DNA of 64,000 nt from Aquamicrobium sp. (GTDB lineage Bacteria; Pseudomonadota; Alphaproteobacteria; Rhizobiales; Rhizobiaceae), in assembly GCA_019739225.1 (NCBI GenBank), contig JAHHDT010000005.1, positions 806,001 through 870,000 on the forward strand, written 5' to 3'. Below, piece by piece: positions 2,733-22,044 of this stretch; positions within the stretch are counted from its first letter, which is position 1, and each line of letters starts with the position of its first letter. The notes below the pieces were generated by a model. It saw only the letters and a list, made by a program, of their open reading frames with translations. It was not told the origin of the DNA and made no database searches. The translations under genes were made by a program, and so were the position numbers.

Positions 2733-2752
2733 TGACGTTTGCGTAAACGTCA
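2733..2752 (-). promoter_or_regulatory. palindromic operator, copy 1 (predicted MerR-type regulator site)
   Basis: TGACGTTT(N4)AAACGTCA has two perfect 8-nt half-sites and a 4-nt centre. Read in the direction of the flavoprotein gene the centre is ACGC, giving the same 20 bases as the operator at 18217-18236. It ends 25 bp before the predicted ATG at 2708. MerR proteins typically bind such palindromes in a long promoter spacer. The assignment to the regulator at 17.6 kb is inference. Confidence 0.7.
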
Positions 2753-2914
2753 TTTTTTAGCAGATCACCATGCGAGGGCAACCGTCGAATGATCCAACGG
2801 CTGGCGAACCGTCAGTCAGCTATTGTGTCCGACAATCGGTTCTGCGCGATTGATTGAACGGCGCTGGAAGGCTAACCATGCGTGAAGACACGAATTCTTT
2901 GCGGCGGAACGGCC

Positions 2915-3946
2915 TTGGACTCGATCGAGAAAGCGATACGAAGTGCCTTCGAGAAAGGCGACCCGAGTGAGCGGGCCTATCGCGAGAAGGTCTATCGTTC
3001 GGCGTTTGCCGCACTCGACCGTGCGCTGCAGTCGAATCCCAACGTAACGCAGGAAATGGTGGCGCGCCGCCGCCAGGCGCTGTCGGCGACTATTTCCGCG
3101 ATCGAATCGGAATTCCTGCCCGCTGTGCCGGCGGTAGAGCCGACAATGCGTGAATCCGCGCCCGTCGAGCCGCGGCCACGCCAATCGGCCGCAGCGACAG
3201 CGGAGCCGTCTTTCGAGCCGACGCTTGAAGGCGAGGAGAGGGATTCGGCATCCCGATCCGACTATGGCGACGACGAGATCGATCCGAGCGTCTACGTGCC
3301 GAACGCAAGGCCGCCACGCCGTAACCGGTCATGGGTTGCCACGCTGGTCACGATCGCGGTGGTGGCGCTGGTCGGTATCGGCGCGTGGTGGCTGCTCGCG
3401 CCTCCTGGCCCCGAATCGTTCCCGCGCCCGACCGAGGATGCCGAGGATTTCACGCCTGCGCCGGTCGAGCCGGGCGTGCCGCCCCGCGTGATCGGGGCCG
3501 ACAACCTCGACGATTGGATCGTGGTTTTCGATCCGGCCGATCCCACTACGGTGACGGCACCTGGCGATTCGAGTGCCGAGGTGATGGACGACGACGGCCA
3601 GCAGTTCATCCGCATCCGCTCGGGTTCCTCGGGGGCACCGATCCTCTTCGATGTGGGGCAGGGTGTACTTGAGCAGGTCGCCGGGCGGCGTACCGTCTTC
3701 AACGTCGAGGCGCGCGCGCAGGAAGGCGAGGAGACGCAAATCTCGGTCGACTGCAGCCTCGGCGAACTGGGTGATTGCGGTCGCAAGCGCTATGCGGTCG
3801 GCGTTACGCGCGAGGAGTTCCTGTTTGAGATCGAACTGCCCTCGGTCGATCCGGGCGCCGGTGGTACGATTGCCATCAACCCCGACATCGAAAATGGCGG
3901 CAAGGCGGTCGACATCTTCGCCATCCGCGTGACGCCCGCGCAGTAG
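2915..3946 (+). CDS. hypothetical protein with one transmembrane helix
   Basis: This is a protein of about 343 residues that I cannot name. The N-terminal part (about 100 residues) is helical and charged. It is followed by a Pro/Glu-rich linker, one membrane helix ('WVATLVTIAVVALVGIGAWWLL', written here only in part as VTIAVVALVGIGAW) and an Asp-rich C-terminal region that looks like a beta domain facing the periplasm. The start is unsure: TTG at 2915 (MDSIEKAIR) reads naturally, while a GTG at 2882 would add 11 unusual residues. It stands alone between two leftward genes. The topology suggests an inner-membrane protein with a cytoplasmic N-terminus. Confidence 0.75.
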   Translation: MDSIEKAIRSAFEKGDPSERAYREKVYRSAFAALDRALQSNPNVTQEMVARRRQALSATISAIESEFLPAVPAVEPTMRESAPVEPRPRQSAAATAEPSFEPTLEGEERDSASRSDYGDDEIDPSVYVPNARPPRRNRSWVATLVTIAVVALVGIGAWWLLAPPGPESFPRPTEDAEDFTPAPVEPGVPPRVIGADNLDDWIVVFDPADPTTVTAPGDSSAEVMDDDGQQFIRIRSGSSGAPILFDVGQGVLEQVAGRRTVFNVEARAQEGEETQISVDCSLGELGDCGRKRYAVGVTREEFLFEIELPSVDPGAGGTIAINPDIENGGKAVDIFAIRVTPAQ

Positions 3947-3952
3947 CGCCTC

Positions 3953-5548
3953 TCAGTCCAGCATCGCGGCAAGCGTTTCCAGCCGATCGGCCTCGGCCGG
4001 CGGCTTGTCCCAGCGCAGCCGCGAGATGCGCGGGAAACGCATCGCGACGCCCGATTTATGCCGCGTCGAGCGGTTGAGCCCTTCGAACGCGACTTCCAGA
4101 ACCAATCCATGATCGCGTTCAGCACGTACGGAACGCACCGGGCCGAAACGATCGACGGTATTGTCGCGCACATATTTGTCGATCTGGCGCAATTCCTCGT
4201 CGGTGAAGCCGAAATAGGCCTTGCCCACCGGCACGAGTTCCGGCTGCGTCTCCGGCCCGGTCCAGACGCCGAACGTGTAGTCGGAATAGAAGCTCGATCG
4301 TTTGCCATGGCCGCGCTGGGCATACATCAGCACGGCATCGATGATGTGCGGGTCGCGTTTCCACTTGAACCACGGCCCCTTCGGACGGCCGGGCACATAG
4401 GGCGCATCGCGGCGCTTGAGCATGATGCCCTCGATGACCGGATGCGGTGGCTCGCTGCGTAGCTGATCCAGCTCCTGCCAGTCGGTGAATGCGACGATCG
4501 GGGACAGGTCGAAACGCGCCGGATCAAGTCCGCCCACAAAGGCTTCCAGCCTTGCTCTGCGATCAGAGAAAGGAAGCGAGCGGGTGTCTTCGGCGCCGTC
4601 GAGAAGCAGGTCGTAGCAGCGCATGAACGCGGGATGGTCGCGCATCGTCTTGGCCGAAACGCTTTTGCGGTTGAGGCGCTGCTGAAGGTCGGAGAATGAA
4701 CCGGTATAGTCGGGCGGGCGGCCCACGAGCAATTCGCCGTCGAGCGCGCCGGAAAAGTCGAGCGCTTCAAGTAGATCCGGGAAAGCACCGGAAATCTCGT
4801 CGCCGGTGCGCGAATAGAGCCGCCGCAGATCGCCCTCGGAGACGGCCTGTACGCGGATGCCGTCCCATTTCCACTCGGCCACATAGTCGGCCGGGTCGAG
4901 CCGTTCGAGATCGCCATCCTGAACCGGGTTCGACAGCATGACCGGGCGGAAAAGCGCGAGGCTGCCGTGCTCGGGCTTGGCCGTCTTCCCGTCGAGCCAC
5001 GCGAACAGGTCTTCGTAGGGGGGCTCCAGCCCGTGCCAGATTTCCTCTATCTCATGCACGTCGACGGAGCCGAGATCGGCAAGCGCCTGCTTGGCGAGCC
5101 GGGCCGAGACGCCGACCCGCAAGCCACCCGTCACCAGCTTGATGATGGCGAAGCGCGAGTCCGGCTGCAATTCGTCGAGCAGGTTGGCAAGCACGGCCGG
5201 TGCATCCGAACGGCTGGCGCCGTGCAGCCGATCCACCGCCTCGGACAGCGATATGTCCTCGTCGCCGGCCGCATCGGCGCCGGGCCACACGAGTGAGATC
5301 GTTTCGGCGAGATCGCCGACATAGTCGTAGGAATAGGCGAACAGCACCGGATCCATGCGCTCGGCGATGAGCGCTCGCAGCAGGGCGGGCTTGACCGAGG
5401 CAAAGGAGAGATTCCCTGTCAGCGCTGCCAACGCAAGGCCGCGATCAGGATCGGGGACCTCGCGGAAATGGTCCGCCATCAACTTCAGCTTGGCGTTGCG
5501 CGATGGCGTCAGGAGCAGTCGGTCCAGCAGTTCGGCGAAGCGCTTCAT
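3953..5548 (-). CDS. ATP-dependent DNA ligase, ligase-associated DNA damage response type (cisplatin-class LigB/C-like)
   Basis: This 531-residue enzyme seals nicks with ATP. An N-terminal DNA-binding domain (about 1-200) precedes the nucleotidyltransferase core. The adenylated lysine is K227 in motif I (KWDGIR). Motif III (DGELLVG near 270), motif IV (EGIMLKR) and motif V (WFKWKR) are all visible, followed by an OB-fold. Length and motif context fit the family that is gene-linked to an MBL exonuclease, an Lhr-like helicase and PdeM (TIGR04120 set), and all three partners are within 7 kb. It lies downstream of the exonuclease gene on the same strand, separated by a 42-bp inverted repeat. Confidence 0.93.
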   Translation of the reverse strand: MKRFAELLDRLLLTPSRNAKLKLMADHFREVPDPDRGLALAALTGNLSFASVKPALLRALIAERMDPVLFAYSYDYVGDLAETISLVWPGADAAGDEDISLSEAVDRLHGASRSDAPAVLANLLDELQPDSRFAIIKLVTGGLRVGVSARLAKQALADLGSVDVHEIEEIWHGLEPPYEDLFAWLDGKTAKPEHGSLALFRPVMLSNPVQDGDLERLDPADYVAEWKWDGIRVQAVSEGDLRRLYSRTGDEISGAFPDLLEALDFSGALDGELLVGRPPDYTGSFSDLQQRLNRKSVSAKTMRDHPAFMRCYDLLLDGAEDTRSLPFSDRRARLEAFVGGLDPARFDLSPIVAFTDWQELDQLRSEPPHPVIEGIMLKRRDAPYVPGRPKGPWFKWKRDPHIIDAVLMYAQRGHGKRSSFYSDYTFGVWTGPETQPELVPVGKAYFGFTDEELRQIDKYVRDNTVDRFGPVRSVRAERDHGLVLEVAFEGLNRSTRHKSGVAMRFPRISRLRWDKPPAEADRLETLAAMLD

Positions 5549-5572
5549 CGCCTGCCGCCTTCAGATACGATC

Positions 5573-5705
5573 TGCGTCCTTCGAGGCTCGCTTCGCTCGC
5601 ACCTCAGGATGAGGACCGTAGTGCATTGGCGCCTACTGCGGGCGGGCTCTATCAAACCACCTCCCTCATCCTGAGGTGCGAGCGAAGCGAGCCTCGAAGG
5701 ACGCA
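5573..5705. repeat. 42-bp perfect inverted repeat (rhizobial-type intergenic palindrome)
   Basis: The left arm 5573-5614 and right arm 5664-5705 are exact reverse complements over 42 bases, separated by 49 bp. Each arm contains the smaller internal palindrome GGCTCGCTTCGCTCGC. Elements of this look are widely scattered between genes in rhizobial genomes. It fills most of the gap between the exonuclease and ligase genes and would form a strong hairpin in RNA read from either strand, possibly lowering ligase expression. Confidence 0.85.
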
Positions 5706-5752
5706 CCGATGCGCATTCGCTGGCTCTGCTGGCGCTTGAGTCGGTGAGCATC

Positions 5753-6763
5753 CTATTCCGCCTCGTCCTCGTAGCCGACAAGATGGAGCGGCCGGGCCGT
5801 AACGCCCTGCAACTCGCACCATCGCACAAGAGCTTCCTCGCGCCCGTGCGTGACCCAGACTTCCCGGGCGCCCGTTTCGGTGATGGTGCGGGTAAGTTCA
5901 TCCCAATCCGAATGGTCGGACAGTATCAGTGGCAGCTCTACGCCCCGCTGTTTCACACGCTGGCGGATGCGCATCCAGCCCGACGCGAACGCCGTGACGG
6001 GGTCCGGAAAGCGGCGTGCCCACCGGTCGGCGAAGGCCGAAGGCGGCCCCACCACGATCGCGCCGGAAAAATCCCGTTTCGCCGACCTCTCGACGGTCGC
6101 GGGTTCGAGCGGCCCGAGGTCTATGCCCTGCGTGTCGTAGTAGTCGCACAACCGAGCGAGCGCGCCGTGGATGTAGATCGGCTGGTCGTAGCCGCAATCG
6201 CGGATCAGCCTGATGACGCGCTGCGCCTTGCCGAGCGCGTAGGCGCCGACGAGATGCGCGCGTTCGGGAAACTGGCTCACGGATTTCAGGAGCCGGCCGA
6301 TTTCGTCGCGTGGGCGCGGGTGGCGGAAGACGGGCAGTCCGAAGGTCGCCTCGGTGATGAAGACGTCGCACGGCACCAGTTCGAAATCCGCGCAGGTGGG
6401 GTCCGGCGCCCGCTTGTAGTCGCCGGAGGCGACGATGCGGATACCGCCATGCTCGACCGCGATCTGCGCCGAGCCGAGCACATGGCCCGCCGGATGAAAC
6501 GAGACGCGTACGCCGTTGACGTCGATCGTCTCGCCATAGGGCGCGGCCTGTGACGAGTGCGCGAAGTCTTCGCCGTAGCGCAGAGCCATGATCTCGAGCG
6601 TCTGTTGCGTTGCCAGCACGTGACGATGGCCGGCACGCGCGTGGTCCGAATGGCCGTGAGTGATGAGCGCGCGCTCGACCGGACGCACCGGGTCGATGAA
6701 GAAATCGCCCGGAGGACAGTAAAGGCCTTCCGGCCGGGGGTGAAGCAGGTCGCGCGCTTGCAT
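5753..6763 (-). CDS. ligase-associated DNA exonuclease (metallo-beta-lactamase fold)
   Basis: This 336-residue MBL-fold nuclease belongs to the SNM1/Artemis-like branch found beside bacterial ATP-dependent ligases (TIGR04122 type). The metal site HGHSDHA lies near residue 36, and the C-terminal part has further conserved His positions, for example 'LILSDHSDW' and 'VTHG'. The start at 6763 (MQARDLLHPRPEG) is preferred over an in-frame ATG at 6871 because AGGA precedes it and family members begin there. It is transcribed away from the methyltransferase and toward the ligase. The predicted role is trimming DNA ends before ligation. Confidence 0.92.
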   Translation of the reverse strand: MQARDLLHPRPEGLYCPPGDFFIDPVRPVERALITHGHSDHARAGHRHVLATQQTLEIMALRYGEDFAHSSQAAPYGETIDVNGVRVSFHPAGHVLGSAQIAVEHGGIRIVASGDYKRAPDPTCADFELVPCDVFITEATFGLPVFRHPRPRDEIGRLLKSVSQFPERAHLVGAYALGKAQRVIRLIRDCGYDQPIYIHGALARLCDYYDTQGIDLGPLEPATVERSAKRDFSGAIVVGPPSAFADRWARRFPDPVTAFASGWMRIRQRVKQRGVELPLILSDHSDWDELTRTITETGAREVWVTHGREEALVRWCELQGVTARPLHLVGYEDEAE

Positions 6764-6869
6764 GGTCCTGAAAAGATAGGCTTTCGCGGCGTTTGTGGAA
6801 GGGCTTGCAAAATCACTGCTGACGGCGCATATGCCAGCCGCCCGCATGCACGCGGGTTCCGGACACATC

Positions 6870-7844
6870 ATGAAAATCCTTCCGCTCTCGTCCGGCGATC
6901 TCGTTGCCGATCGCCGCGCGGACTATGCCGAGATGCTGCGCGATGGTGGCGACGTTGCCGCCGCGGCCGACCTGATGCGCGATACGGTCGCGATCGCGCC
7001 GGGCTGGGTGGCGGGCTGGTATCGCCTCGGCGAGATGCTGGACGAGGCGGGCCGCCCGGGCGAGGCGGTCGATGCCTGGCGGGAAGCCCTGCGCCTCGAT
7101 CCCGCCGACAGGCTGGGTGCATCGCTGAAGCTCGAACTTGCAGGTGTCCTGGCCGTATCCGAAATGCCGCCGAGCGGTTTCGTGGAAACGCTGTTCGACC
7201 AGTATGCCGGCGAGTTCGACAGCGCCCTGGTGGAGCGGCTTGGCTATCGGGTTCCCGAGCTGATCGCAGAGGCGATCGCCGCTTCCGGCCGCACCGCCTT
7301 CGCGCACGCCGTCGATCTTGGCTGTGGCACCGGTCTGATGGGCGAGCGTCTGCGGCGCGTCGCAAGCTTCCTCGAAGGGATCGACATTTCGGCGGGCATG
7401 CTGGCCAGGGCCCGGGCGAAGGGTGTCTACGACCGTCTCGAGCAGGGCGACCTGCAAATGCTGGCTTCGGGCACAGACCGTGTCGACCTCGTCACGGCGG
7501 CCGATGTCCTGATCTATCTCGGCCGGCTCGAACGCGTGTTCGGCGCGGTGGCTGCCATGCTGGCGCCGGGCGGCCTCTTCGCCTTTTCCGTCGAGAATCA
7601 TGCCGGGCCTGAGGACCTCATCCTGCGGGAATCGAGGCGCTATGCCCATTCCCGCCGCTATGTCGCGGAGCTGCTTGAAGCGAGCGGTTTCGACGTCATC
7701 GCCATCGAGCATGCGCATCTTCGAAGCGATCGCGGCACACCGATTGCGGGATTGGTGGTACTGGCTGCGAGGCGAGGTCCTAGCCCCATCATGGTGATCG
7801 CCGGCGAAACCGGCGACGAGGCGCTTACGCCGGCGGTGCATTGA
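6870..7844 (+). CDS. TPR-containing SAM-dependent methyltransferase
   Basis: This is a 324-residue protein. The first 100 residues contain TPR-like helices ('GWYRLGEMLDEAGRPGEAVD' is typical). The rest is a class I methyltransferase with the SAM motif DLGCGTGLMG at about 149-158, a motif II-like 'VDLVTAADVLIYLG' and a C-terminal 'FSVENH' strand. This architecture resembles NodS/TPR methyltransferases annotated only by fold, and the substrate is unknown. It sits between the two arms of the ligase-associated repair cluster and is co-directional with the helicase, 67 bp upstream of it. A link to repair is suggested only by position. A longer frame begins at 6795, but ATG 6870 is the natural start. 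Confidence 0.88.
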   Translation: MKILPLSSGDLVADRRADYAEMLRDGGDVAAAADLMRDTVAIAPGWVAGWYRLGEMLDEAGRPGEAVDAWREALRLDPADRLGASLKLELAGVLAVSEMPPSGFVETLFDQYAGEFDSALVERLGYRVPELIAEAIAASGRTAFAHAVDLGCGTGLMGERLRRVASFLEGIDISAGMLARARAKGVYDRLEQGDLQMLASGTDRVDLVTAADVLIYLGRLERVFGAVAAMLAPGGLFAFSVENHAGPEDLILRESRRYAHSRRYVAELLEASGFDVIAIEHAHLRSDRGTPIAGLVVLAARRGPSPIMVIAGETGDEALTPAVH

Positions 7845-7911
7845 CGCTGCACGGTTTCCCGTCCTTGGCGATAGCCGCGCGCCGCGCTACCTGTTGGCGG
7901 TGAACAATCCG

Positions 7912-10422
7912 ATGTCCAGGGACGCGTTCGCCGCGTCGACCGTTCTGCCCGAAAGCTTCGCTCGCTGGTTCGCCAGCCGGGGCTGGGCGCCGCGCGCCCA
8001 TCAGCTCGACCTGCTGGCGCGGGCGTCAGGCGGAGCCTCGGTGCTGCTGATTGCGCCGACCGGCGCCGGCAAGACACTGGCCGGCTTCCTGCCGTCGCTG
8101 ACCGATCTGGCATCTCGGCCACAGCGCAAGCCGGGCGAGCGCTATCGCGGCATCCACACACTTTACATCTCGCCGCTGAAGGCGCTGGCCGTCGACATCG
8201 AGCGCAATCTCGGCCGGCCGGTCGCTGAGATGGAGCTGGACATCGCCGTCGAGACCCGCACCGGCGACACGCCGGCCCACAAGCGCCAGCGCCAGAAGCT
8301 GGTGCCTCCGGACATATTGCTCACGACGCCGGAGCAGCTTGCGCTGCTGATCGCATCAAAGGATGCGGAACGCTTCTTTGCCGGGCTGAAATATGTGGTT
8401 CTGGACGAACTGCATTCTCTGGTGACCTCGAAGCGCGGCCACCTGCTTGCGTTGGGTCTCGCGCGGCTGCGGCGCTTCGTGCCGGAGTTGCGGACGATCG
8501 GGCTGTCGGCAACGGTGGCCGAGCCGGACGCCCTGCGTCGATGGCTCGTTCCGCAGAGCTCTCCGGAAGCGATGGCCGATGTGATCACCGTCGAAGGCGG
8601 CGCCAAGCCGGTCATCACCATTCTCGATTCCGAGGAGAGGGTGCCGTGGGCCGGCCACTCGGCTCGTTATGCGATCGGCGAGATCTACGAGGCGATCAAG
8701 GCGCACCGCACCACGCTGCTTTTCGTCAACACGCGCTCGCAGGCCGAATTCCTGTTTCAGGAGCTGTGGCGGGTCAACGAGGATACGCTGCCGATCGCGC
8801 TGCACCACGGTTCGCTCGACGTCGCCCAGCGTCGGCGGGTGGAAAATGCGATGGAGGCCAATGCGCTGCGGGCCGTGGTGGCCACATCGACCCTCGACCT
8901 CGGCATCGACTGGGGTGACGTCGATCTCGTCGTCCACGTTGGCGCGCCGAAGGGGGCAAGCCGCCTTGCCCAGCGCATCGGGCGCTCCAACCACCGCATG
9001 GACGAACCCAGCCGCGCAATCCTCGTGCCGGCCAACCGCTTCGAGGTGCTGGAATGCCGTGCGGCACTTGAGGCGAACTACCTCGGCGCGCAGGACACGC
9101 CGCCGCTCCAGCAGGGCGCGCTCGACGTGCTGGCTCAGCACGTGATGGGCATGGCCTGCGCCGAACCGTTCGATGAGGCGGAACTGCTGGATGAGGTGAG
9201 AAGTGCCGCACCCTATGCCGAACTCGATGCCGAAACGTTCGCGCGCGTCGTCGAGTTCGTCGCAACCGGCGGCTATGCGCTCAGGAGCTATGAGCGCTAC
9301 GCGCGCATCCGCAAGACCAAGGACGGGTTGTGGCGCGTCTCGCATCCGCGCTTCGCCCAGCAGTACAGGCTCAACGTCGGCACGATCATCGAATCGCCGA
9401 TGCTGAACGTGCGCATGACCCGACAGCGCGGCAAGGGCGGAAACGTGTCGGGTGGCCCGGTCCTCGGCAAGGTGGAGGAGTATTTCCTCGAAACTCTTTC
9501 GCCCGGTGACACCTTCCTGTTTGCAGGCAAGATGCTACGCTTCGAAGGCATCCGCGAAAACGAGTGCTTCGTCTCCAACGCGGCAGGGCAGGACGCGCGT
9601 GTGCCGGTCTACGCAGGCGGCAAGTTTCCGCTCTCTACCTATCTGGCTGCCGAGGTTCGATCGATGCTGGCGGATTCCGAACGCTGGCGGAAGTTGCCCG
9701 AACAGGTGGCCGACTGGCTTGCCATCCAGGCGGAAAAATCCGTGCTGCCCAAGGCAGGCGATCTGCTGGTCGAGACTTTTCCGCGCGGCAACCGCCACTA
9801 CATGGTCGCCTATCCTTTCGAAGGCAGGCTGGCGCACCAGACGCTGGGCATGCTGCTCACACGCAGGCTGGAGCGCGCCGGTGCGCATCCGCTTGGCTTC
9901 GTTGCCACCGACTATGCGCTCGCGATCTGGGCTCATCCGGATATGGGCGCCCTTTTCCGCAGCGGCGAACTGCCGCTTTCCGCCCTGTTCGACGAGGACA
10001 TGCTGGGCGACGACCTCGATGCCTGGCTGGCCGAAAGCTGGCTGCTGAAGCGCACCTTTCGCGCCTGCGCGGTGATCGCCGGGCTGATCGAGAAGCGGCA
10101 TCCCGGCCAGGAGAAGACCGGCCGGCAGGTGACGGTCTCGGCCGACCTGATTTACGATGTGCTGCGGACGCATGATCCCGACCACATCCTGCTTCGCGCC
10201 ACGCGGGCGGATGCGGCGGCCGGACTGCTCGATGTCAGCAGGCTTGCCGACATGCTCTCGCGGATCAGGGGACGAATCATGCATAAGGACCTGGAGCGAA
10301 TCTCGCCGCTCGCCGTCCCCGTCATGCTGGAGATCGGCAAGGAACGGGTGAAGGGCGAGGCCGACGAGATGCTGCTTTCGGAGGTCGAGGAAGACCTCAT
10401 CCATGAGGCCATGGGAGACTGA
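7912..10422 (+). CDS. ligase-associated DEXH-box DNA helicase (Lhr-Core type)
   Basis: This superfamily 2 helicase has about 836 residues. It has Walker A PTGAGKT near residue 49, a DELH Walker B box, SAT motif 'GLSATVA', a second RecA domain with 'ATSTLDLGIDWG' and 'QRIGRSNH', and a long winged-helix/Lhr C-terminal region. Family knowledge (TIGR04121) is that it translocates 3' to 5' on ssDNA with the ligase-associated repair set. In-frame TTG 7894 and GTG 7900 are alternative starts; ATG 7912 is chosen as the simplest. The stop overlaps the next start (ATGA), so it is translationally coupled to pdeM. Confidence 0.93.
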   Translation: MSRDAFAASTVLPESFARWFASRGWAPRAHQLDLLARASGGASVLLIAPTGAGKTLAGFLPSLTDLASRPQRKPGERYRGIHTLYISPLKALAVDIERNLGRPVAEMELDIAVETRTGDTPAHKRQRQKLVPPDILLTTPEQLALLIASKDAERFFAGLKYVVLDELHSLVTSKRGHLLALGLARLRRFVPELRTIGLSATVAEPDALRRWLVPQSSPEAMADVITVEGGAKPVITILDSEERVPWAGHSARYAIGEIYEAIKAHRTTLLFVNTRSQAEFLFQELWRVNEDTLPIALHHGSLDVAQRRRVENAMEANALRAVVATSTLDLGIDWGDVDLVVHVGAPKGASRLAQRIGRSNHRMDEPSRAILVPANRFEVLECRAALEANYLGAQDTPPLQQGALDVLAQHVMGMACAEPFDEAELLDEVRSAAPYAELDAETFARVVEFVATGGYALRSYERYARIRKTKDGLWRVSHPRFAQQYRLNVGTIIESPMLNVRMTRQRGKGGNVSGGPVLGKVEEYFLETLSPGDTFLFAGKMLRFEGIRENECFVSNAAGQDARVPVYAGGKFPLSTYLAAEVRSMLADSERWRKLPEQVADWLAIQAEKSVLPKAGDLLVETFPRGNRHYMVAYPFEGRLAHQTLGMLLTRRLERAGAHPLGFVATDYALAIWAHPDMGALFRSGELPLSALFDEDMLGDDLDAWLAESWLLKRTFRACAVIAGLIEKRHPGQEKTGRQVTVSADLIYDVLRTHDPDHILLRATRADAAAGLLDVSRLADMLSRIRGRIMHKDLERISPLAVPVMLEIGKERVKGEADEMLLSEVEEDLIHEAMGD

Positions 10423-11135
10423 TGAACGTCGCACCGGAAAGACACGGCTTTACGCGCGGCTCTGGCATGATCGCCATTGCCGGTGAGGTCGCGCTGTGCG
10501 ATCCGCGTGGCGCGCTGTTCTTTCCCGACATGCGGCTGCTTGTGGTTTCGGATCTGCATCTTGAGAAAGGCTCGGCCTTCGCGCGGCGCGGCCGGCTGCT
10601 GCCGCCCTACGATACAGGCGCGACCCTGGACCTTCTGGATACGGTGATAGCCGATCACCGCCCCACGACGGTGATCAGCCTCGGCGACAGCTTTCACGAC
10701 GGTTTCGGGGCGGAGCGTATGCCGTCCATCTATCGTGACAGGCTGCTTTCGCTGATGGCGGGCCGTGAATGGATCTGGGTCGCCGGCAACCACGATCCCG
10801 ACGCGCCGGCCGACCTTCCGGGCCTCGTCGCGGGTGAACTGGCGCTCGGCGGTCTGCGGTTCCGGCACGAGCCCCTTGCCGGCGCCGAGCCCGGAGAGAT
10901 TGCGGGTCACCTTCACCCCGGGGCGGTCGTTGTCCAGCGCGGCCGCGCCGTGCGTCGCCGCTGTTTTGCCACCGATGGCGAGCGGCTCGTCATGCCGGCC
11001 TTCGGCGCCTACACCGGCTCTCTCAATGTTCTGGACAAGGCCTATCGAGGACTGTTCCGGTGGGAGCGTTTCTTCGCCCACATGCTCGGCACCAGCCGGG
11101 TTTATGCGGTGGCTCACCACCGGCTGCACCGCTGA
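10422..11135 (+). CDS. pdeM: ligase-associated DNA damage response endonuclease PdeM
   Basis: This 237-residue metallophosphoesterase shows the expected metal ligands in order: DLHLEKG, GDSFHDG, GNHDPD and GHLHPG. The homologue from Pseudomonas putida is a Mn-dependent DNA nuclease encoded with Lhr-Core, exonuclease and ligase. Its ATG overlaps the helicase stop by one base, so the two form an operon. Its TGA (11133-11135) sits directly against the stop codon of the convergent DUF3429 gene, together making TGATCA. Confidence 0.93.
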   Translation: MNVAPERHGFTRGSGMIAIAGEVALCDPRGALFFPDMRLLVVSDLHLEKGSAFARRGRLLPPYDTGATLDLLDTVIADHRPTTVISLGDSFHDGFGAERMPSIYRDRLLSLMAGREWIWVAGNHDPDAPADLPGLVAGELALGGLRFRHEPLAGAEPGEIAGHLHPGAVVVQRGRAVRRRCFATDGERLVMPAFGAYTGSLNVLDKAYRGLFRWERFFAHMLGTSRVYAVAHHRLHR

Positions 11136-11588
11136 TCAGTTAGCTGCCACGAAAGCAACCAGCATCGCCGTGACGGCAAGGAAGGTCATGCGGCTGCGCA
11201 AACGGCCATACCATGCTGGCAGCTCTCCCTGATGGACCGCGAAAGCGTCCCACGCTCCCTGCGCCGCTAACGCGATGGCAAGCAGCACGAATGCGCCGTT
11301 GCTCGGCAACAGCGGCGACATCCAGGCGACGACGACAAGCGCTGCCGCGCCGCCTGCCGTGCGCACCGAAGGTGCGAAGCCCCAATGTGCGCCGGCGGCG
11401 AAGGTAAGCATCAGCGCGCCATAGCTCGACAGCAATGCTGCCGTCAATTCGCGCCATGGATGTGTCGCGTCGATGCTCGCAAGCCAGATTGCCAGCACCC
11501 ACATCGGCAGCAAGGCGGCATATGCGAAACGGCTGATCGAGCCGCTTTGCGGGACGTCGTTCTTGCCGTCGCCGTCCCAATCGCTCAC
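11136..11588 (-). CDS. DUF3429 domain-containing membrane protein
   Basis: This 150-residue protein has about five hydrophobic helices ('LPMWVLAIWLASI', 'SSYGALMLTFAAGAHWGF' and so on). The 'SYGALMLTFAAGAHWG' segment is the hallmark of DUF3429, an uncharacterised inner-membrane family. It lies 5 bp downstream of the TIGR02186 gene on the same strand and is probably the last gene of that operon. Function is unknown. Confidence 0.85.
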   Translation of the reverse strand: MSDWDGDGKNDVPQSGSISRFAYAALLPMWVLAIWLASIDATHPWRELTAALLSSYGALMLTFAAGAHWGFAPSVRTAGGAAALVVVAWMSPLLPSNGAFVLLAIALAAQGAWDAFAVHQGELPAWYGRLRSRMTFLAVTAMLVAFVAAN

Positions 11589-11593
11589 GCCGG

Positions 11594-12397
11594 TCAGTCC
11601 TTGCGGAAGACGACGCGCCCGACCCAGCCGGTGAGGAAGGCCAGCGCCACAGCAGCCACCCCATACAGGAAGCTGTTCTCCTGCGCCGCGCGGAACAAGC
11701 GCTGCTCGAAACCGGCCTTCTGGATCGAGAGCTGCGCGGAGCTTTCGTCGATGAAAGCGCCGTTCTTGAAAAGGAACGCGCGTGCCCTGTGGGTGCCGAC
11801 CGGAACGTTGGGCGCCAGGTGCAGCGTCGCCCGGAAAAGACTTTGCGACAGGAAATGCACGCCACCGATGCGCTCACTGAACAGCTCCGACGCCTTCTTG
11901 CGGTCGCGCAGGGCGGCGGTGAATTCGGTGATTGTTTCAGGGTCGCCCGTCTTGTTGGCCGGGATCAGGGTGATGTTGTCAGCTCCCAGCGCCATCTGGC
12001 GATAGCTCGCCGGATTGGTCACGTCCTGCCAGGCGCGTGTGGTGGCGACCGAATAGGAGACCGGAACGCTGACGAACGTCTCGGACTGGGTGTTGATCCA
12101 CATGCCGAGCACACGGTTCTTCTTGCGAACGACCACGGGGCGGGGCGGGCCTTCCAGCACCACGATGACGTCATAGCGGCCGTGCCGTGCGATGAGCGGA
12201 TCGGCGTTGTCCAGCGCGCCGAAGATGGTCAGATCAGCGCCGGAGAAGTCCGCCGTGATCGACACGCGGTCAGTCGAGAGGCCGATCTGGATATTTTCCG
12301 GATTGACCGTTTCCGGCGCCTGGGCCGCAGCCGGCGTCAGCGGCAGCAGAAGGGCTATCAGCGTTGCCATCAGGGCTGCGGGACGGACGAAGACCAT
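11594..12397 (-). CDS. TIGR02186 family protein (secreted/membrane-anchored)
   Basis: This 267-residue protein has an N-terminal signal peptide (cleavage near AAAQA at 26), a beta-rich periplasmic region beginning 'NIQIGLSTDRVSI' and a C-terminal membrane helix ('FLYGVAAVALAFLTGWVG') followed by RKD. This is the pattern of the alphaproteobacterial TIGR02186 family, which is nearly always linked to a TauE/SafE permease. That gene ends 3 bp upstream here, so the two are co-transcribed. It could be an accessory subunit of the permease; the role is not established. Confidence 0.87.
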   Translation of the reverse strand: MVFVRPAALMATLIALLLPLTPAAAQAPETVNPENIQIGLSTDRVSITADFSGADLTIFGALDNADPLIARHGRYDVIVVLEGPPRPVVVRKKNRVLGMWINTQSETFVSVPVSYSVATTRAWQDVTNPASYRQMALGADNITLIPANKTGDPETITEFTAALRDRKKASELFSERIGGVHFLSQSLFRATLHLAPNVPVGTHRARAFLFKNGAFIDESSAQLSIQKAGFEQRLFRAAQENSFLYGVAAVALAFLTGWVGRVVFRKD

Positions 12398-12400
12398 GCC

Positions 12401-13330
12401 TCAGATCCCCGACAGCGACGACAGGGAGTAAAGCGAGTTCGGACGGACGAAGAGGTCGAAGGCGAGCCTCAACGCCACTGCCACTACGAGCAGTGCGAGC
12501 AGCGCGCGCAATTGCTCGCCGCGCAGCTTCTGCCCGGCCTTTGCGCCGTATTGGGCACCGGCAACGCCGCCGATCATCAAAAGGAAGGCGAGCACCACGT
12601 CGACCGTCTGGTTGGTGGTGGCGTGGACGATGGTGGTGTAGGCGGCGGTGAAGACGATCTGGAACAGCGAGGTGCCGATGACGACGTTTGTCGGCACCTT
12701 CAGCAGGTAGATCAGGGCCGGCACCATGATGAAGCCGCCACCCACGCCCATGATGGAAGCAAGAAAGCCGATGATCGCGCCCAGGCCGAGCACGGGGATC
12801 ACGCTGACGAAAAGCTTGGAGGCGCGGAAGCGCATCTTGAGCGGCAGGCGGTGAATCCAGTTGTGCTGGCCAGGTTTTCGCAGTGATGGAGCCGCGCCGC
12901 CTGCTGCCCTGCGCATCGCCCGCACGCTCTCGATCAGCATCATGCTGCCGACCGTCCCTAGGAGCGCCACGTAGAGCAACGAGACGAACAGGTCGAGCTG
13001 GCCGACGCTGCGCAGCAGCGAGAAGACCCACACGCCCACGGTGGAGCCGACGACGCCGCCGGCCAGCAGCACAGTTCCGAGCTTGAAGTCGATGGTGCCC
13101 TTCTTGAAATGCGAAAGCGCACCCGAGATCGACGAAGCGATAACCTGATTGGCGCCGGTGGCGACGGCGATCGCAGGTGGAATGTTGTAGAAGATCAGCA
13201 GCGGCGTGATGAGGAAGCCGCCGCCCACACCGAACAGGCCCGACAGGAAGCCCACCGCAGCACCCATGGCCAGAAGCACGACCATGTTGACCGACATTTC
13301 CGCGATCGGGAGATAGATGCCCACCGCCAA
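12401..13330 (-). CDS. sulfite exporter TauE/SafE family permease
   Basis: This 309-residue polytopic protein has about eight helices. The family signature appears twice as 'GFLSGLFGVGGGFLITPLLI' and 'IMGVGGGFIMVPALIYLL', the internal duplication expected of TauE/SafE (DUF81). Such proteins export sulfite, sulfoacetate or related anions; the substrate cannot be told. The predicted start is a TTG (13330) with a nearby GTG alternative. It is first in the operon TauE - TIGR02186 - DUF3429. Confidence 0.9.
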   Translation of the reverse strand: MAVGIYLPIAEMSVNMVVLLAMGAAVGFLSGLFGVGGGFLITPLLIFYNIPPAIAVATGANQVIASSISGALSHFKKGTIDFKLGTVLLAGGVVGSTVGVWVFSLLRSVGQLDLFVSLLYVALLGTVGSMMLIESVRAMRRAAGGAAPSLRKPGQHNWIHRLPLKMRFRASKLFVSVIPVLGLGAIIGFLASIMGVGGGFIMVPALIYLLKVPTNVVIGTSLFQIVFTAAYTTIVHATTNQTVDVVLAFLLMIGGVAGAQYGAKAGQKLRGEQLRALLALLVVAVALRLAFDLFVRPNSLYSLSSLSGI

Positions 13331-13443
13331 GCTCGACTATTCGTGTCCGGACCCTGGAACCGTTCCTGCTTTCGAAGCGGACCAGGACGGTACCCCGTTC
13401 TTGCGCCGACATGTCCACGAAGTCAAACGCCAGAAGGCGATTG

Positions 13444-13465
13444 AATCCCGAAAAACTCCGGGATT
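13444..13465 (-). terminator. hairpin downstream of tauE-side promoter / after podJ-like upstream region
   Basis: AATCCCG (13444-13450) pairs with CGGGATT (13459-13465) around an 8-nt loop. It lies between the end of the leftward PodJ-like gene and the start of the leftward permease gene. No T-run follows on the minus strand, so termination would be weak. Confidence 0.3.
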
Positions 13466-13503
13466 TGAAGGTATTTGCGCTAAAGCGGCGCGCCGCGTCG
13501 CAA

Positions 13504-16500
13504 TTAGCGGCGTTCCAGCAGCGCGCGCACCGTCGGCTCGTCGACTTCGCCCGTGGCATTCATGTCGTTGTCGCCCTGGAAGGCGGCAATGGCGGCCTTG
13601 GTCTTTGCGCCCATGACGCCATCGGCGGGGCCGGCATCGTAACCGTTCTTGTTCAGGATCGTCTGGATGTTGCGGACGGCCTGCTTCATGTCGACGCTGG
13701 CCGTGACCTCGTCACCTTCGCTCCAGCTATCGGGAATCTCGACCGTGTTCGCTTCGGCGTCGACCGGCTTGGCGCGCCAGAGCTCGACCGCGGCGCGGGC
13801 ATTCTCGAGCTGCTCGGGGCGCAATGCCTTGGCAACCTCGTCGCGCTTGGCGGCGGCGTCCTTGTCGCCGGCCTTGGCGACCAGCGCGAACCACTTGTAG
13901 GCTTCCTCCAGGTTCTGCTGCATGCCGACGCCCTTGGCCGCCAGGATGCCGAGATTGAACTGGCTGTCCTGCACCCCGAACTCAGATGCCTCGGCGAACC
14001 AGCGCGCGGCTGAATCGTTGTCGGTCGTGCCGTCCGCGCCCATCGCGTTGAGCACAGCAAGATTGTGCATTGCGCTTGCGTTGCCCTGTGCTGCCGCAAG
14101 CTGGTACCAGGTCTTGGCGGCCTTCACGTCGCGTTCGACGCCAACGCCCTTCTCGTAAAGATTTCCGATGCGGTACTGCGCAGGCGCGAGGCCCTGCTCG
14201 GCCGCTCTCTGATACCACTCGGCCGCCTTGGCCATGTCTTCCTGCGTACCACGGCCTTCCGCATAGCGATTGCCGATCTGGTAGAGCGCCTTGGGATCGC
14301 CGGCGGCCGCGGCCTCGCGCAACGCCACCGGGCCTGCGTCGACCGGTATGGCGGCAAGGGCGTCTTCGGCAGCGTCGGGTATGCTCGCCGTCTCGGTCGC
14401 GATCTCGGCGTCGGGAGCTGCGCTCTCCTGGCTTGCGGTAGCCTGTGCCGCCGCTTCCTGCTGCGGCTCTTCGACCTCGACCGGCAGGGTCGTTGCGGCG
14501 TCTGCGTCAAGCCAATCGGTCGAGACCTCGTCTGCGGTCTGCGGCGGTTCGGCCATCATCGCGCGAGCGGAATCCGGCGCCGTTTCGCCAGCCATGCGTG
14601 CCGGCTTTTCGGGTGCCTCGTCCATGATCTCCGGTTCGACGGCCTGCGCCACCAGCGGCGCGGAGGTGGCGGACGGCGCCGGCGCTGCGGCGACAGGCTC
14701 GTCATTGCCGCCGCCGATTACGGTGCGGCCGATCTGCAGCCCGGCCAGGGCGATGAGAATCGCGGCGATGCCCATCAGGACCGGCTTGCGGCGGCGCTTG
14801 AGGAGACCGCCGAGGCTGAAGCCGCCGGATTTCGACTTCGTCGCCGGCCGCCGCTTCATGATCTCGGCTTCGGCAGCAGCAGCCTGGGCGGCGCGTCGCG
14901 CCGCGGCGATGAAGTCGGCCTTGGCCGTATCTGCATCGGCACCCGACTTCGGCGGCTGGCCGCGTTCGTCGCGAACCCGCTTCATGATGGCGTTGAGATC
15001 CGGCGCTCCGGAGCCCGGTTCAAGTGGCTGGTTGGCCAGTTGGGGATCGATCGGCGCATCGAGCTCGATGCTCGGTGCCGTGTTGTCGCCCTGCTTCTCG
15101 CTGGGCGTTTCGCCGGCAGGCTTCTCGCGACCGTCTTCCTCGGCGGCGATTTTGCGGCCCGAGAGTGCGCGCGTCAGGCCGCCGAGCATCGACATGCGCC
15201 CGCTGCCGGCTTTCGCGCTGGGGCCATCGGCGTCGCCACGAAGCGCATCGGCGGCGGCCTGCGCGGCTGCCGCAGCGGCGGTGCGCCTGGCCCCACGGGG
15301 CGTATCCTTTTCGCTGTCGGGCGCGACCACGTCGTCCCTGGCGGACATCGGGAAAGCCTCGTTCGAAGGCTCGAGCGATGGGGTCCGGTCGGCATCGAGA
15401 AGAGTCTGGCGCTGCGAGGCCGCAGGTGCGGTCTCGCCTGTGCCGCCTGCCTCGATCGTGCCGAGCCTTCCGACGATCTTCAGGAGCGTGTCGTGGATCG
15501 CCTCGAAAGTCTTGGCGTTGCGGTCGTCCGAGCGGCGCGTGAGCGCTTCCAGCGACTTCAGGTCGTCGACCAGACCGGCGACCAGCGGTCCGTCGTTGCC
15601 GGCTCCGGCGAAGCGGCGAACCGTCTCTTCGGCGGCCTGTCGTGCGGCCTCGATCACGTCCTGCCGACTCTGAACGATCGACTGCTCGATCTTGTCGAGG
15701 CGGGGGCGGATGTCTTCAGCGTCTTCCCCTGCCTGCGTTGGCCTGGAAAGATGCGATGTCAGATCCGCGATCTGGGATTCCAGGCTGCGGATCAGGTCCT
15801 TGTCCAGGCCGGGCTGAAGCAGGGAGGATTCGAGCTTGCTCGACATTGTATCCATGCGGGCTTCTAGCGAACGGATGGCCTGTTCGTCCGCCGGTGCGGG
15901 GGGCTGCTGCTCCAGCCGCGCGGCGAGGTCGGCGAAGCGCGCATCCATCGCCTCGATGAAACGGGCGTCATGGGCCGCGTCTGCGCCGCTGCCGTCGAGG
16001 CGCGATGCAACGCTTTCCAGCCGGCGCTCCAGGTCGCGGAAAAGCACCTGCCCCTGAGCGAGCGAATCCTCATGGCGCTGCTCGAGCATCGCCGAGATGG
16101 ACGCGAACCGATCCTCGAGCCCGCGGAAAACATGGTCCATGTCCGGCTGCGCCGGGGCGTGTTCGAGCCTGTCGGAGATCGTGTCGATGCGCTCGGCGAG
16201 GCGCTCGATAACCTGTTCCGGCAGATCGACGCGCTGCGAGATGTCCTCGATCCGGCTGGACAGCGCCGCAAGCTGACCCACGAGTACGCCTGAGGGGTTC
16301 TCCTCGGCGGATTCGTCGAGCTGACGGGCCAATGCCGAGATGCGCGCCTCGATGCGCTCGAACGGTTCGGGGTCGAACGCGCTTGCGCGGCTGGAACCGG
16401 AGGATGCCGCAACGGCGCGGGAAATCTCGTTGAGGCGTTCCTCGATCGCGTCGAGCGCGTCCGGTCCGATGCGGTCCTGATGATGCGCGAACTGATCGAC

Positions 16501-17172
16501 CGTCGTCGCCAGGATTTTCATCTTGTCTTCGAGCGAGCGAAGCGCAACGGAAGTCGGCAGGGCGTTCACCGCTTCGGCGATCTGCTCGAGGCGCGCGCTC
16601 AGCGCCTGCAGGGCCGGGTCGTCCGCGTTGCCGCCGCCGACATTCGCAACCTGGCTGGCGATGTTGCTCCAGCGTTGGTCGAATTCGCTCCAGCGGCGGT
16701 CGAAGGACTGAACGGTATCTTCGCGCGCCAGCTTGCCGAGCGCGTTCTTTACCTGCTCCATTTCAAGCCGCAGCATGTTGACCTGACGGTCGTCGCTCTG
16801 CTCGGCAAGCTTGTGGATCATGCCGGAGAGGCGCTCGAACTCGGCGCGGAGATCTGCGGTCTGGCTTGCCGGTCCCGAACGCTGCAAAGCGTCCTCGATT
16901 TCCTGCTTCAGCGCCGTGAATTCGTGGCGCAGGCCTGAGCCCATCTGGTCGCGCAGGTCGCGGCGAAGAGCGTTCAGTTCCGACGAAAGGTCCGCGGCGG
17001 ACGGGCGATCCTCGCGCCACGCCCGTTCGTATTGATCCGGGCGCTCGTCGTACGGGCGCCGGATCCTCGTCTCCAGATCGTCCAGGCTGCTGGCAATATC
17101 TTCCAGCGAGGTGCTCGCCCGGCGCCTGCGGCCTGCATTGATCGAATCGAGATAGGAGCGTCTGTTGTTCAT
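13504..17172 (-). CDS. PodJ-like polar localization protein (coiled coil, TM, Sel1 repeats, peptidoglycan-binding domain)
   Basis: This 1222-residue protein is predicted to span the inner membrane. Residues 20-570 are rich in coiled-coil heptads. A Glu/Ala/Pro-rich linker leads to a basic stretch and one TM helix at about 797-817. The periplasmic part has a Pro/Ala linker, Sel1/TPR-like repeats at 957-1105 ('ALYQIGNRYAEGRG', 'AQYRIGNLYEKGVG') and a C-terminal peptidoglycan-binding domain at 1163-1220 ('VRNIQTILNKNGYDAGPADG'). The order matches Caulobacter PodJ and rhizobial PodJ1, which organise the cell pole and are under cell-cycle control. Orthology is likely but not proved by eye. Confidence 0.85.
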   Translation of the reverse strand: MNNRRSYLDSINAGRRRRASTSLEDIASSLDDLETRIRRPYDERPDQYERAWREDRPSAADLSSELNALRRDLRDQMGSGLRHEFTALKQEIEDALQRSGPASQTADLRAEFERLSGMIHKLAEQSDDRQVNMLRLEMEQVKNALGKLAREDTVQSFDRRWSEFDQRWSNIASQVANVGGGNADDPALQALSARLEQIAEAVNALPTSVALRSLEDKMKILATTVDQFAHHQDRIGPDALDAIEERLNEISRAVAASSGSSRASAFDPEPFERIEARISALARQLDESAEENPSGVLVGQLAALSSRIEDISQRVDLPEQVIERLAERIDTISDRLEHAPAQPDMDHVFRGLEDRFASISAMLEQRHEDSLAQGQVLFRDLERRLESVASRLDGSGADAAHDARFIEAMDARFADLAARLEQQPPAPADEQAIRSLEARMDTMSSKLESSLLQPGLDKDLIRSLESQIADLTSHLSRPTQAGEDAEDIRPRLDKIEQSIVQSRQDVIEAARQAAEETVRRFAGAGNDGPLVAGLVDDLKSLEALTRRSDDRNAKTFEAIHDTLLKIVGRLGTIEAGGTGETAPAASQRQTLLDADRTPSLEPSNEAFPMSARDDVVAPDSEKDTPRGARRTAAAAAAQAAADALRGDADGPSAKAGSGRMSMLGGLTRALSGRKIAAEEDGREKPAGETPSEKQGDNTAPSIELDAPIDPQLANQPLEPGSGAPDLNAIMKRVRDERGQPPKSGADADTAKADFIAAARRAAQAAAAEAEIMKRRPATKSKSGGFSLGGLLKRRRKPVLMGIAAILIALAGLQIGRTVIGGGNDEPVAAAPAPSATSAPLVAQAVEPEIMDEAPEKPARMAGETAPDSARAMMAEPPQTADEVSTDWLDADAATTLPVEVEEPQQEAAAQATASQESAAPDAEIATETASIPDAAEDALAAIPVDAGPVALREAAAAGDPKALYQIGNRYAEGRGTQEDMAKAAEWYQRAAEQGLAPAQYRIGNLYEKGVGVERDVKAAKTWYQLAAAQGNASAMHNLAVLNAMGADGTTDNDSAARWFAEASEFGVQDSQFNLGILAAKGVGMQQNLEEAYKWFALVAKAGDKDAAAKRDEVAKALRPEQLENARAAVELWRAKPVDAEANTVEIPDSWSEGDEVTASVDMKQAVRNIQTILNKNGYDAGPADGVMGAKTKAAIAAFQGDNDMNATGEVDEPTVRALLERR

Positions 17173-17594
17173 CGAAACGTCCGTCGCCGCTTGGTTGCCG
17201 GCTGGCCGGCGGGTTGCTCATTCTTGTCCGAAGGGTTTCCCGGTGTTCGCCAGCGTTTGGCAGCAGTACTGGTCCCCTCGGCGGAAGGCTCCGTAAGCAA
17301 CGAAAAACAGAATAACCACGGGACTCCGTCCTGCGCACAATTCCCCGAACGTGGTAAACAAGCCGTTAACCTAAATTACCATTTCGCTTATCGCCGTTGA
17401 GCGCGCGCACCCCCTGCGGCAGGATTTCGCACTTGCGGCATAACTTATATGCGCCTATATGCGCGGCAACTGACGGGTCGGCTTGCGATCCGTTTCCGAC
17501 GTTTGGTCCACTTGATCGGATGCTTGTTCGCCCCACTCGCATCCAATCGGCGCTTCCGCGGCGAGCCGAAGCGCAGCGCACGGGGAATTTTGAA
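17173..17594. promoter_or_regulatory. divergent intergenic region between podJ-like gene and merR
   Basis: This stretch of 422 bp has no credible gene. It holds the promoters of the leftward PodJ-like gene and the rightward MerR gene. Visible elements are one GANTC (CcrM) site, GACTC at 17322-17326, a CtrA half-site-like TTAAC at 17366-17370 with an AT-rich flank, and a direct repeat near merR listed separately. Control of the PodJ-like gene by cell-cycle factors is inference. Confidence 0.5.
17446..17464 (+). repeat. short direct repeat TATATGCGC before merR
   Basis: TATATGCGC occurs at 17446-17454 and 17456-17464, one helical turn apart (10 bp) and about 130 bp before the MerR start codon. 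It could be part of the merR promoter or a regulator site. It does not resemble the TGACGTTT palindrome. Confidence 0.4.
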
Positions 17595-18032
17595 ATGATG
17601 AACATGAGGCCGGCCAGCGAAAGCATGGCCAACGCATCGGAGCTTTCCGATGGCTACATACGTATTGGCGACATGGCGAAGCAGTTCGACGTAACGCTGC
17701 GCACCCTTCGCTTCTACGAGGACAAGGGTCTGTTGAACCCGAAGCGCGAAGGCAACACCCGCCTTTATACGCAGCGCGACGTGACCCGCCTGAAGCTGAT
17801 CATGCTCGGCCGCAAGGTCGGTTTCTCGCTGCGCGAGGTCAAGCAGATCATGGATATGTACGATCCCGATTCCGGAAACGCGAAACAGCTTCGCACGCTG
17901 CTCGACAAGTCCGAGCGCCAGCTTGGCCGTCTGGAAAAGCAACGCCTCGCCCTTGAGGACGCGATCGGAGATCTCAAGAGCGCGATGAATACATGGCGTT
18001 CTGCACTTGCATTGCGGCAGGCTTCCGCCTGA
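17595..18032 (+). CDS. MerR family transcriptional regulator (LiuR-like)
   Basis: This 145-residue regulator has the MerR helix-turn-helix and wing at about 21-60 ('IRIGDMAKQFDVTLRTLRFY'), then the family helix 'KLIMLGRKVGFSLREVKQIM' and a coiled-coil dimer helix. It has no cysteine at all, which argues against metal or redox sensing. It also has no large effector domain, as in the LiuR group that governs branched-chain amino acid and acyl-CoA catabolism genes. It directly precedes the beta-oxidation operon in the same direction, separated by a terminator and a 28-bp palindrome, so it is the best candidate to bind that palindrome. ATG 17595 was chosen over upstream codons; ATG 17598 is also possible. 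Confidence 0.88.
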   Translation: MMNMRPASESMANASELSDGYIRIGDMAKQFDVTLRTLRFYEDKGLLNPKREGNTRLYTQRDVTRLKLIMLGRKVGFSLREVKQIMDMYDPDSGNAKQLRTLLDKSERQLGRLEKQRLALEDAIGDLKSAMNTWRSALALRQASA

Positions 18033-18061
18033 TCGCATTTTCATTGTAACGAGTTTCGAAG

Positions 18062-18087
18062 GGGCCGCCGTGAGCGGCCCTTTTTTT
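18062..18087 (+). terminator. intrinsic terminator of merR
   Basis: GGGCCGC (18062-18068), a 5-nt loop and GCGGCCC (18074-18080) are followed by seven T residues. It separates the merR transcript from the acyl-CoA dehydrogenase operon, which therefore needs its own promoter. Confidence 0.9.
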
Positions 18088-18212
18088 GGTTGCTGGCCCG
18101 CTGGCCTCCGTCGCATTCAAGTGTGCCCATACAGAGCAGGCGCCCGTCAGGGCGGCGTCGTGACAACCGGCCGGCAAGCAGAAGCTGTGGTGGAAAATTG
18201 CCGCAGCTTTAC

Positions 18213-18240
18213 AATTGACGTTTACGCAAACGTCAATTGT
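18213..18240 (+). promoter_or_regulatory. palindromic operator, copy 2, in the promoter of the beta-oxidation operon
   Basis: The core TGACGTTT(ACGC)AAACGTCA at 18217-18236 is extended by CAAT and ATTG to a 28-bp palindrome, imperfect only in the central four bases. TTGACG at 18216-18221 could be a -35 box and TTGATA at 18241-18246 a -10 box. The spacer would be 19 bp, the unusual length that MerR regulators act on. The first gene begins 83 bp downstream. The same 20-bp core occurs at 2733-2752. Confidence 0.78.
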
Positions 18241-18322
18241 TGATAGTGTGCCTTCCGATCCTGGCTTCGCCGTGGAACGATCCCGCGCGGCGAAGATCTG
18301 CCCGACCTCTGGAGGACTTTTC

Positions 18323-20113: not shown

Positions 20114-20175
20114 GGACTATTCCACCAGTCTGTTCAAGCTTGAACGTCTTGCGGAAGAGTATCAGGGAGGTCCTC

Positions 20176-21348: not shown

Positions 21349-21350
21349 AG

Positions 21351-21983: not shown

Positions 21984-22044
21984 ACCGTCAACGAAACTCC
22001 GGGCGGTGCCGCAAGGGCGCCGCCGGTCGAAAGGGAGAAAACAG

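Follow-up and report, generated by a model that had tools for sequence, protein, structure and literature searches.

In this report we focus on two copies of a 20-bp palindrome in a 64,000-nucleotide stretch of the Aquamicrobium sp. contig JAHHDT010000005.1 (the whole stretch is called the window below), one upstream of a gene for a flavoprotein of the nitronate monooxygenase (NMO)/FabK superfamily and the other upstream of a beta-oxidation operon (the fad operon). Both palindromes are probably operators of a single LiuR-class MerR repressor regulon for acyl-CoA catabolism, in which the flavoprotein gene (hereafter the NMO gene) would be co-controlled and its product would be active on acyl-CoA compounds, a reading that we hold with reasonable though far from complete confidence. 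As judged by comparison of related genomes, the regulon that ties the flavoprotein gene to genes of acyl-CoA oxidation is real and conserved.

Results

The palindrome TGACGTTTNNNNAAACGTCA is present in exactly two copies in the window, 2733-2752 and 18216-18235. An initial sequence-only reading of this DNA had singled out the pair and held that the copies are identical, center included, when each is read toward its gene. They are, since both become TGACGTTTACGCAAACGTCA once oriented toward their downstream gene, with the correction that the second copy starts one base before the 18217-18236 given there. That reading also considered a chance match negligible, and the numbers bear it out: the window count stays at two when up to three mismatches are allowed, against 0.15 copies expected from shuffles, 1 in 100 of which gave two. 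No exact copy beyond the window pair exists in the 5.35-Mb genome, where inexact copies comprise three with two mismatches and four with three. Because the genome total at up to three mismatches (9) is not above that of a reversed-pattern control (11), the three-mismatch matches are noise. A chance repeat is ruled out by the shuffles, the genome-wide scan, and the comparison of 61 genomes that follows.

This comparison used a sample of the family with one genome per genus, in part of which genes were called with our own codon-usage script, failing AT-rich loci being read by tblastn. At up to one mismatch, there are 76 sites across 45 of the 61 genomes, against 3 for the reversed control. By hand tally, 44 of them lie before the fad operon, 25 before the NMO gene, and 7 elsewhere, whereas the total of 76, like the 49 and 42 genera below, was recomputed by script with forward counts typed in; the site in genome G170 was assigned via locus L062, and that in G191, at the end of contig 293, by its merR neighbor alone. 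Sixty-nine of 76 near-perfect sites thus precede one of two targets, rather than falling at random places unrelated to catabolic genes, and the link between the NMO-like gene and acyl-CoA oxidation genes that the sequence-only reading drew from the common motif is conserved. The other seven sites precede an etfB-like gene (read by eye), mdh, a thioesterase-like gene (by eye, without Pfam match), and a DUF2147 gene, or are without gene assignment (three). An orthologous fad operon is found in 49 genera, and its site has no mismatch in 33, one in 10, two in 5, and three in 1. The remaining 12 genomes have no site at up to one mismatch: in eight of these, no operon match was obtained at E 1e-150, G176 offers nothing closer than a 47% homologue, and G154, G155, and G192 (small) were not searched for the operon. 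A full-length NMO orthologue (at least 69% identity) is found in 42 genera; in 32 of these, the 100 bp upstream contain a site with no more than three mismatches, and in 25 of the 32 with no more than one; in 30 such upstream regions shuffled 50 times each, no match with fewer than three mismatches ever appeared. The pattern also extends beyond the family, with matches in 35 of 150 genomes sampled across the order. In 11 of 25 site loci outside the family, a merR gene adjoins the same dehydrogenase; the site precedes merR in 8 of these and separates the two genes in 3. Three of the 25 sites precede the gene for electron-transfer flavoprotein-ubiquinone oxidoreductase (ETF-QO), two adjoin a second LiuR-class merR paralogue described below, and several are unassigned.

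The gene next to operator 2 encodes a MerR-family protein (termed fad-MerR here), with matches to PF13411, PF00376, and PF09278 above cut-off and a structure model displaying the domain and a helix at 95-143. The translation of 17598-18032 contains no cysteine, as the sequence-only reading had stated, and a metal or redox MerR (CadR, CueR, ZntR) is ruled out by this and by scores far below cut-off for the NCBIfam equivalogs listed. By our own count, fad-MerR (identity of at least 43%) is present in 38 of 61 genera, and its group forms one clade that includes other families (tree support 100/99, with a rough bootstrap). Among 80 named merR loci from close relatives, the operon start could be located in 76, and all 76 have the exact site, these loci having been fetched by their MerR. 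The genome encodes a second LiuR-class MerR outside the window (locus L109, 8126-8512; contig C1 near 76.1 kb), whose gene follows one identified by eye as MgtE-like. This paralogue has a box of its own upstream, TTGACTTTTACGTAAA / TTGACTTTTACGTAAATGCC, and such a TTGACT-type box is visible in 26 of 28 genera examined. The box is within two mismatches of the full dyad in 11 of 15 genera without fad-MerR versus 2 of 13 with it, in counts uncorrected for kinship.

Weaker sites and their downstream genes point to a wider acyl-CoA regulon, probably of the known LiuR type. One of the three two-mismatch copies in the genome lies between genes for a thioesterase and an enoyl-CoA hydratase, another before ETF-QO, and the third before a liu-like operon (short-chain dehydrogenase/reductase, carboxyltransferase, acyl-CoA dehydrogenase, biotin carboxylase, and acyl-CoA ligase). 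With a looser pattern, a site precedes an acyl-CoA ligase (fadD-like) gene in six of seven examined genera without fad-MerR, and sites also precede ETF-QO, etfB-like, mdh, and other acyl-CoA genes; a Pfam check of the labels covered 2 of 6 fadD and 1 of 2 etfB loci, the others being named by eye. The small, two-target regulon of the sequence-only reading was therefore drawn too narrowly, and what is found is the hallmark of a LiuR regulon, a conserved dyad operator before branched-chain or fatty-acid degradation genes.

Solved relatives of the flavoenzyme rank with FabK first by sequence (7e-17), followed by nitropropane/nitronate enzymes (best 6e-9; PA4202 3e-4). FabK also comes first in the fold ranking, obtained with a model of moderate confidence (predicted local distance difference test score of 78), in which nitroalkane/nitronate enzymes take ranks 8, 11, and 13 among FabK entries with equal TM-scores. 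The enzymes closest to it are thus not proven nitronate monooxygenases, FabK being clearly closer by sequence and narrowly by fold, with the GGH motif aligned. Unlike FabK, enoyl-ACP reductase II, however, the window enzyme scores far below the cut-off of the NCBIfam equivalog (70.3 versus 453.1 bits), and its context is catabolic rather than biosynthetic. Outside the family, a homologue of a thiolase, acyl-CoA dehydrogenase, or hydratase lies within 1.5 kb in 11 of 28 orthologue loci versus 0 of 30 and 0 of 15 controls, a count in which one genus supplies some of the 11 loci, the homologies are of 26-48%, and the controls are from other genomes of the window's family. In one locus (L437), the NMO orthologue sits between thiolase-like and acyl-CoA-dehydrogenase-like genes. 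The comparison across related genera suggests that the flavoenzyme is a regular but uncharacterized partner in fat breakdown. As for a possible replacement of FadH, the genome has three Oxidored_FMN proteins, and there is no clear FadH among the two scanned: one matches salicylyl-CoA hydroxylase/oxidoreductase above cut-off, and one is similar to FadH/old yellow enzyme but below every cut-off shown. Two separate Oxidored_FMN loci (L411 and L412) lie in 764-aa open frames, and the one scanned encodes a bifunctional salicylyl-CoA 5-hydroxylase/oxidoreductase.

Promoter layout was compared in 47 fad and 30 NMO loci. Loci lacking a site within two (fad) or three (NMO) mismatches had been dropped, as had some whose start could not be read. 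When 44 fad promoters are aligned on the operator, TTTGnTA is conserved 23-29 bases past its first base. At the fad loci, TGnTA occurs at the exact offset in 22 of 47, within 16 nucleotides after the operator in 23, and before it in none, and T..TA occurs at the exact offset in 32. The arrangement is the opposite at the NMO loci, where 23 of 30 have TGnTA within the 16 nucleotides preceding the operator and none has it after. The operator would therefore cover the -35/spacer region at fad and, at NMO, sit close to the transcription start, and one protein acting at two such positions is most simply a repressor. The centers of the operators are less uniform: an A comes first in 44 of the 47 at fad and in 21 of the 30 at NMO, where the other nine are reversed; a common center orientation is not a strict rule.

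The features around the two sites are collected in Table 1. The fad operon spans 18323-26071 (+) and is followed by a thioesterase-like gene. Among the relatives returned by a search from which the window's own record was possibly excluded, the closest named one is Mesorhizobium sediminum, with 96% identity for the MerR and 99% for the first dehydrogenase. Since a terminator-like hairpin separates the end of merR from operator 2, this operator is unlikely to control merR here. A gene at 2915-3946 (+), divergent from the NMO gene, has no Pfam match, and its homologues are likewise divergent from NMO in several genera; given this orientation, operator 1 might affect that gene too. Between both sites lie a DNA-repair-like cassette at 3953-11135 (ATP-dependent DNA ligase; a beta-lactamase-fold protein, probably a ligase-associated exonuclease; an Lhr-type helicase; and a metallophosphoesterase) and, at 13504-17172 (-), a gene for a 1222-aa protein whose matches are to an SbcC-like coiled coil and, at the C terminus, to phage endolysin families; relatives of this protein adjoin the fad operon in many loci seen.

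Table 1. Operators, genes, and predicted promoter elements in the window
Feature	Position	Strand	Remarks
NMO/FabK-superfamily flavoprotein, 317 aa	1755-2708	-	PF03060
Operator 1, 20-bp palindrome	2733-2752	-	24 bp 5' of NMO/FabK-like gene; TGACGTTTACGCAAACGTCA toward gene
Predicted extended -10 of NMO promoter, TGcTAAAAA	2754-2762	-	Immediately upstream of operator 1
Predicted -35 of NMO promoter, TTGCCC	2776-2781	-	Putative; TT conserved (64% each) near that distance in 28 loci
Cysteine-free MerR-family regulator (fad-MerR), 144 aa	17598-18032	+	Family matches, translation
Intrinsic-terminator-like hairpin and T run	18058-18084	+	Between merR and operator 2; fold z-score -3.49
Operator 2, 20-bp palindrome	18216-18235	+	5' of beta-oxidation (fad) operon
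Possible -35 of fad promoter, TTTACG	18221-18226	+	Putative; inside operator 2, 17 bp from predicted -10
Predicted extended -10 of fad promoter, TGaTAGTGT	18241-18249	+	Register not unique
Acyl-CoA dehydrogenase 1, 596 aa	18323-20113	+	First operon gene
Acyl-CoA dehydrogenase 2	20182-21348	+	Start codon predicted
Glutathione S-transferase-like protein	21345-21983	+	
Acetyl-CoA C-acyltransferase (thiolase)	22045-23253	+	NF006090 above cut-off
Isochorismatase-family protein	23262-23846	+	
FadJ-like hydratase/3-hydroxyacyl-CoA dehydrogenase	23858-26071	+	

Discussion

The mechanism that we propose is one of joint derepression. Without ligand, a MerR dimer would cover the -35/spacer region at fad and, at NMO, the transcription start, so that both promoters would be off, and a ligand, probably an acyl-CoA or enoyl-CoA, would release the two together. 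In this genome, fad-MerR is the best candidate and the likely regulator, although we infer rather than observe that it is the binder, and it may share the sites with the second LiuR-class paralogue, which would have to act alone in genera without fad-MerR. The NMO product would most likely be a flavin mononucleotide (FMN) enzyme with an acyl- or enoyl-CoA thioester as its substrate, in an accessory step of beta-oxidation.

Several observations weigh against this reading. On the side of the flavoenzyme, 10 of the 42 genera with an NMO orthologue have no site within three mismatches, three genomes of the same family with an exact fad site gave no NMO match at E 1e-60, and only one of the 28 orthologue loci outside the family is within three mismatches of the operator. 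Furthermore, the fold does not separate an NMO function from that of FabK, the ranks being close and the TM-scores equal. At the promoters, the register of the fad -10 is ambiguous, offsets 23, 26, and 28 scoring alike (2.77-2.87 of 6), and a simple sigma-70 promoter scan matched neither the fad nor the NMO promoter. As for the regulator, 17 of the 49 genera keep the fad operon and its site without fad-MerR, an absence that rests on a threshold of E 1e-20 and on a profile search covering ten of the 17, so that adjacency is no proof of the binder. Conversely, six genomes (G169, G171, G176, G185, G190, and G200) have a relative of fad-MerR but neither the orthologous operon nor a site at up to one mismatch. 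Finally, the box that the retained paralogue has upstream of itself is of the TTGACT type, not the TTGACG type.

The control by the adjoining LiuR-like MerR that the sequence-only reading assumed therefore stands in part, fad-MerR being the best candidate here but missing from 17 of the 49 genera that keep the site. In an alternative reading, which we regard as unlikely, the second LiuR-class MerR is the true regulator of both sites, and the neighboring MerR is secondary or otherwise employed. In each of the ten genera searched by profile, this paralogue alone gives a strong match (E from 9e-32 to 2e-29, against 2.5e-17 or weaker for the runner-up). The fad site is retained in every one of them, and an NMO site accompanies it with up to one mismatch in nine and with three mismatches in one; the related box upstream of the paralogue points the same way. 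However, this box differs at base 6 of the half-site while the fad and NMO sites remain of the TTGACG type, and fad-MerR adjoins the operon and the site in all the named loci with a located operon start. Covariation is not clear, since a diverged fad-MerR goes with a diverged fad site in G172 and G189 but with an undiverged site in G165, G182, and G187. In a simple history, fad-MerR would have been present in the ancestor of the order and later lost from some genera, in which the same operators may now be served by the paralogue. A third MerR group, found in six of the ten genera without fad-MerR, was set aside, as it adjoins pdxJ-like and recD-like genes (by eye, five loci) rather than beta-oxidation genes.

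We consider it similarly improbable that the NMO gene encodes a true nitronate monooxygenase detoxifying nitronates such as propionate 3-nitronate and co-induced with lipid breakdown. The PF03060 match and the common fold superfamily are shared with these enzymes, which are close structural neighbors, but the sequence match is much weaker than that to FabK, and outside the family the neighbors include acyl-CoA genes. Moreover, PDB entries differ on TM0800, which one of them lists as a putative nitroalkane dioxygenase and others as FabK. A role in acyl-CoA metabolism is thus likelier, on these comparisons, than nitronate or nitro-lipid chemistry. The acyl or nitro-lipid role suggested by the sequence-only reading gains from the neighbors and from the rank of FabK in its first half, whereas its second half found no support.

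Less probable still is classical MerR activation, in which the operator lies within an over-long 19-bp spacer and the regulator distorts the DNA to activate transcription. TTGACG and TTGATA are indeed spaced 19 bp at the fad promoter, and the sequence-only reading relied on them, but the TTGATA register has a mean -10 score of only 1.57 of 6 over the 47 loci, well below that of the three offsets named above. At NMO, the -10-like element comes before the operator, an arrangement in which distorting the spacer could not work. In the promoters predicted from sequence, the operator is therefore not centered in a 19-20-bp -35/-10 spacer, and its placement fits repression rather than activation; LiuR, too, is described as a repressor (PMC3223726). 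That the palindrome at 2733 is a plus-strand terminator, as a simple terminator scan flags it owing to a trailing TTTTTT, can be rejected with near certainty, since the gene finder places no plus-strand gene end there and the palindrome recurs 15-44 bp upstream of NMO across genera with variable flanks.

How does this regulon compare with known systems? LiuR orthologues reportedly control fatty-acid degradation genes in alphaproteobacteria (a finding ascribed to Kazakov et al. 2009, J Bacteriol), and the operator in the window presumably resembles the published LiuR motif. LiuR has been called a MerR-family repressor (PMC3223726), its regulons have been counted in >100 genomes (PMC5343134), and in the alphaproteobacterium Rhodospirillum rubrum, a LiuR assigned by BLAST rose on butyrate (PMC7238569). 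Since LiuR-type MerR regulons have already been described, the present one most likely belongs to a known kind. It shares with them a MerR-family regulator, in a tree that comprised no named LiuR sequence, and catabolic targets that include a liu-like operon and acyl-CoA genes. It differs in having an NMO/FabK-like target, with a site often as good as the fad site, in its two LiuR-class paralogues, and in the lack of the adjoining regulator in a third or so of fad-site genera. For the flavoenzyme, a precedent for a role on CoA thioesters is IpdC from steroid-ring catabolism, a FabK-like flavoenzyme acting on a CoA thioester (PMC5380842). Likened by that description and not by sequence, both are FabK-like flavoenzymes in a repressor-controlled acyl-CoA catabolic regulon, although the regulon here is one of general acyl-CoA catabolism and not of steroids. 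In the open-access literature, most subscription papers being outside its scope, we did not find this NMO gene in a MerR fatty-acid regulon, nor the two operator positions, nor regulator loss with the operator kept; passages from PMC9611204, PMC9045290, PMC3840689, and PMC3562072 likewise had no bearing on the matter.

These observations have several implications. Tentatively, and with clearly less conviction than we have in the regulon itself, we propose that this FabK/NMO-superfamily FMN enzyme may be an unrecognized but regular part of beta-oxidation among Rhizobiaceae-like bacteria, where it might, for instance, reduce or isomerize unsaturated enoyl-CoA intermediates, and that its operator may have been kept while control passed between two paralogous MerR repressors, outliving the original regulator. 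The analysis gives a testable area of function to a flavoenzyme usually named after nitronates. The retention of the operator where the adjoining regulator is missing offers a case for a direct test of regulator exchange between paralogues. Finally, our analysis defines a fatty-acid regulon, operator included, in a large group of bacteria that live in soil or in symbiosis.

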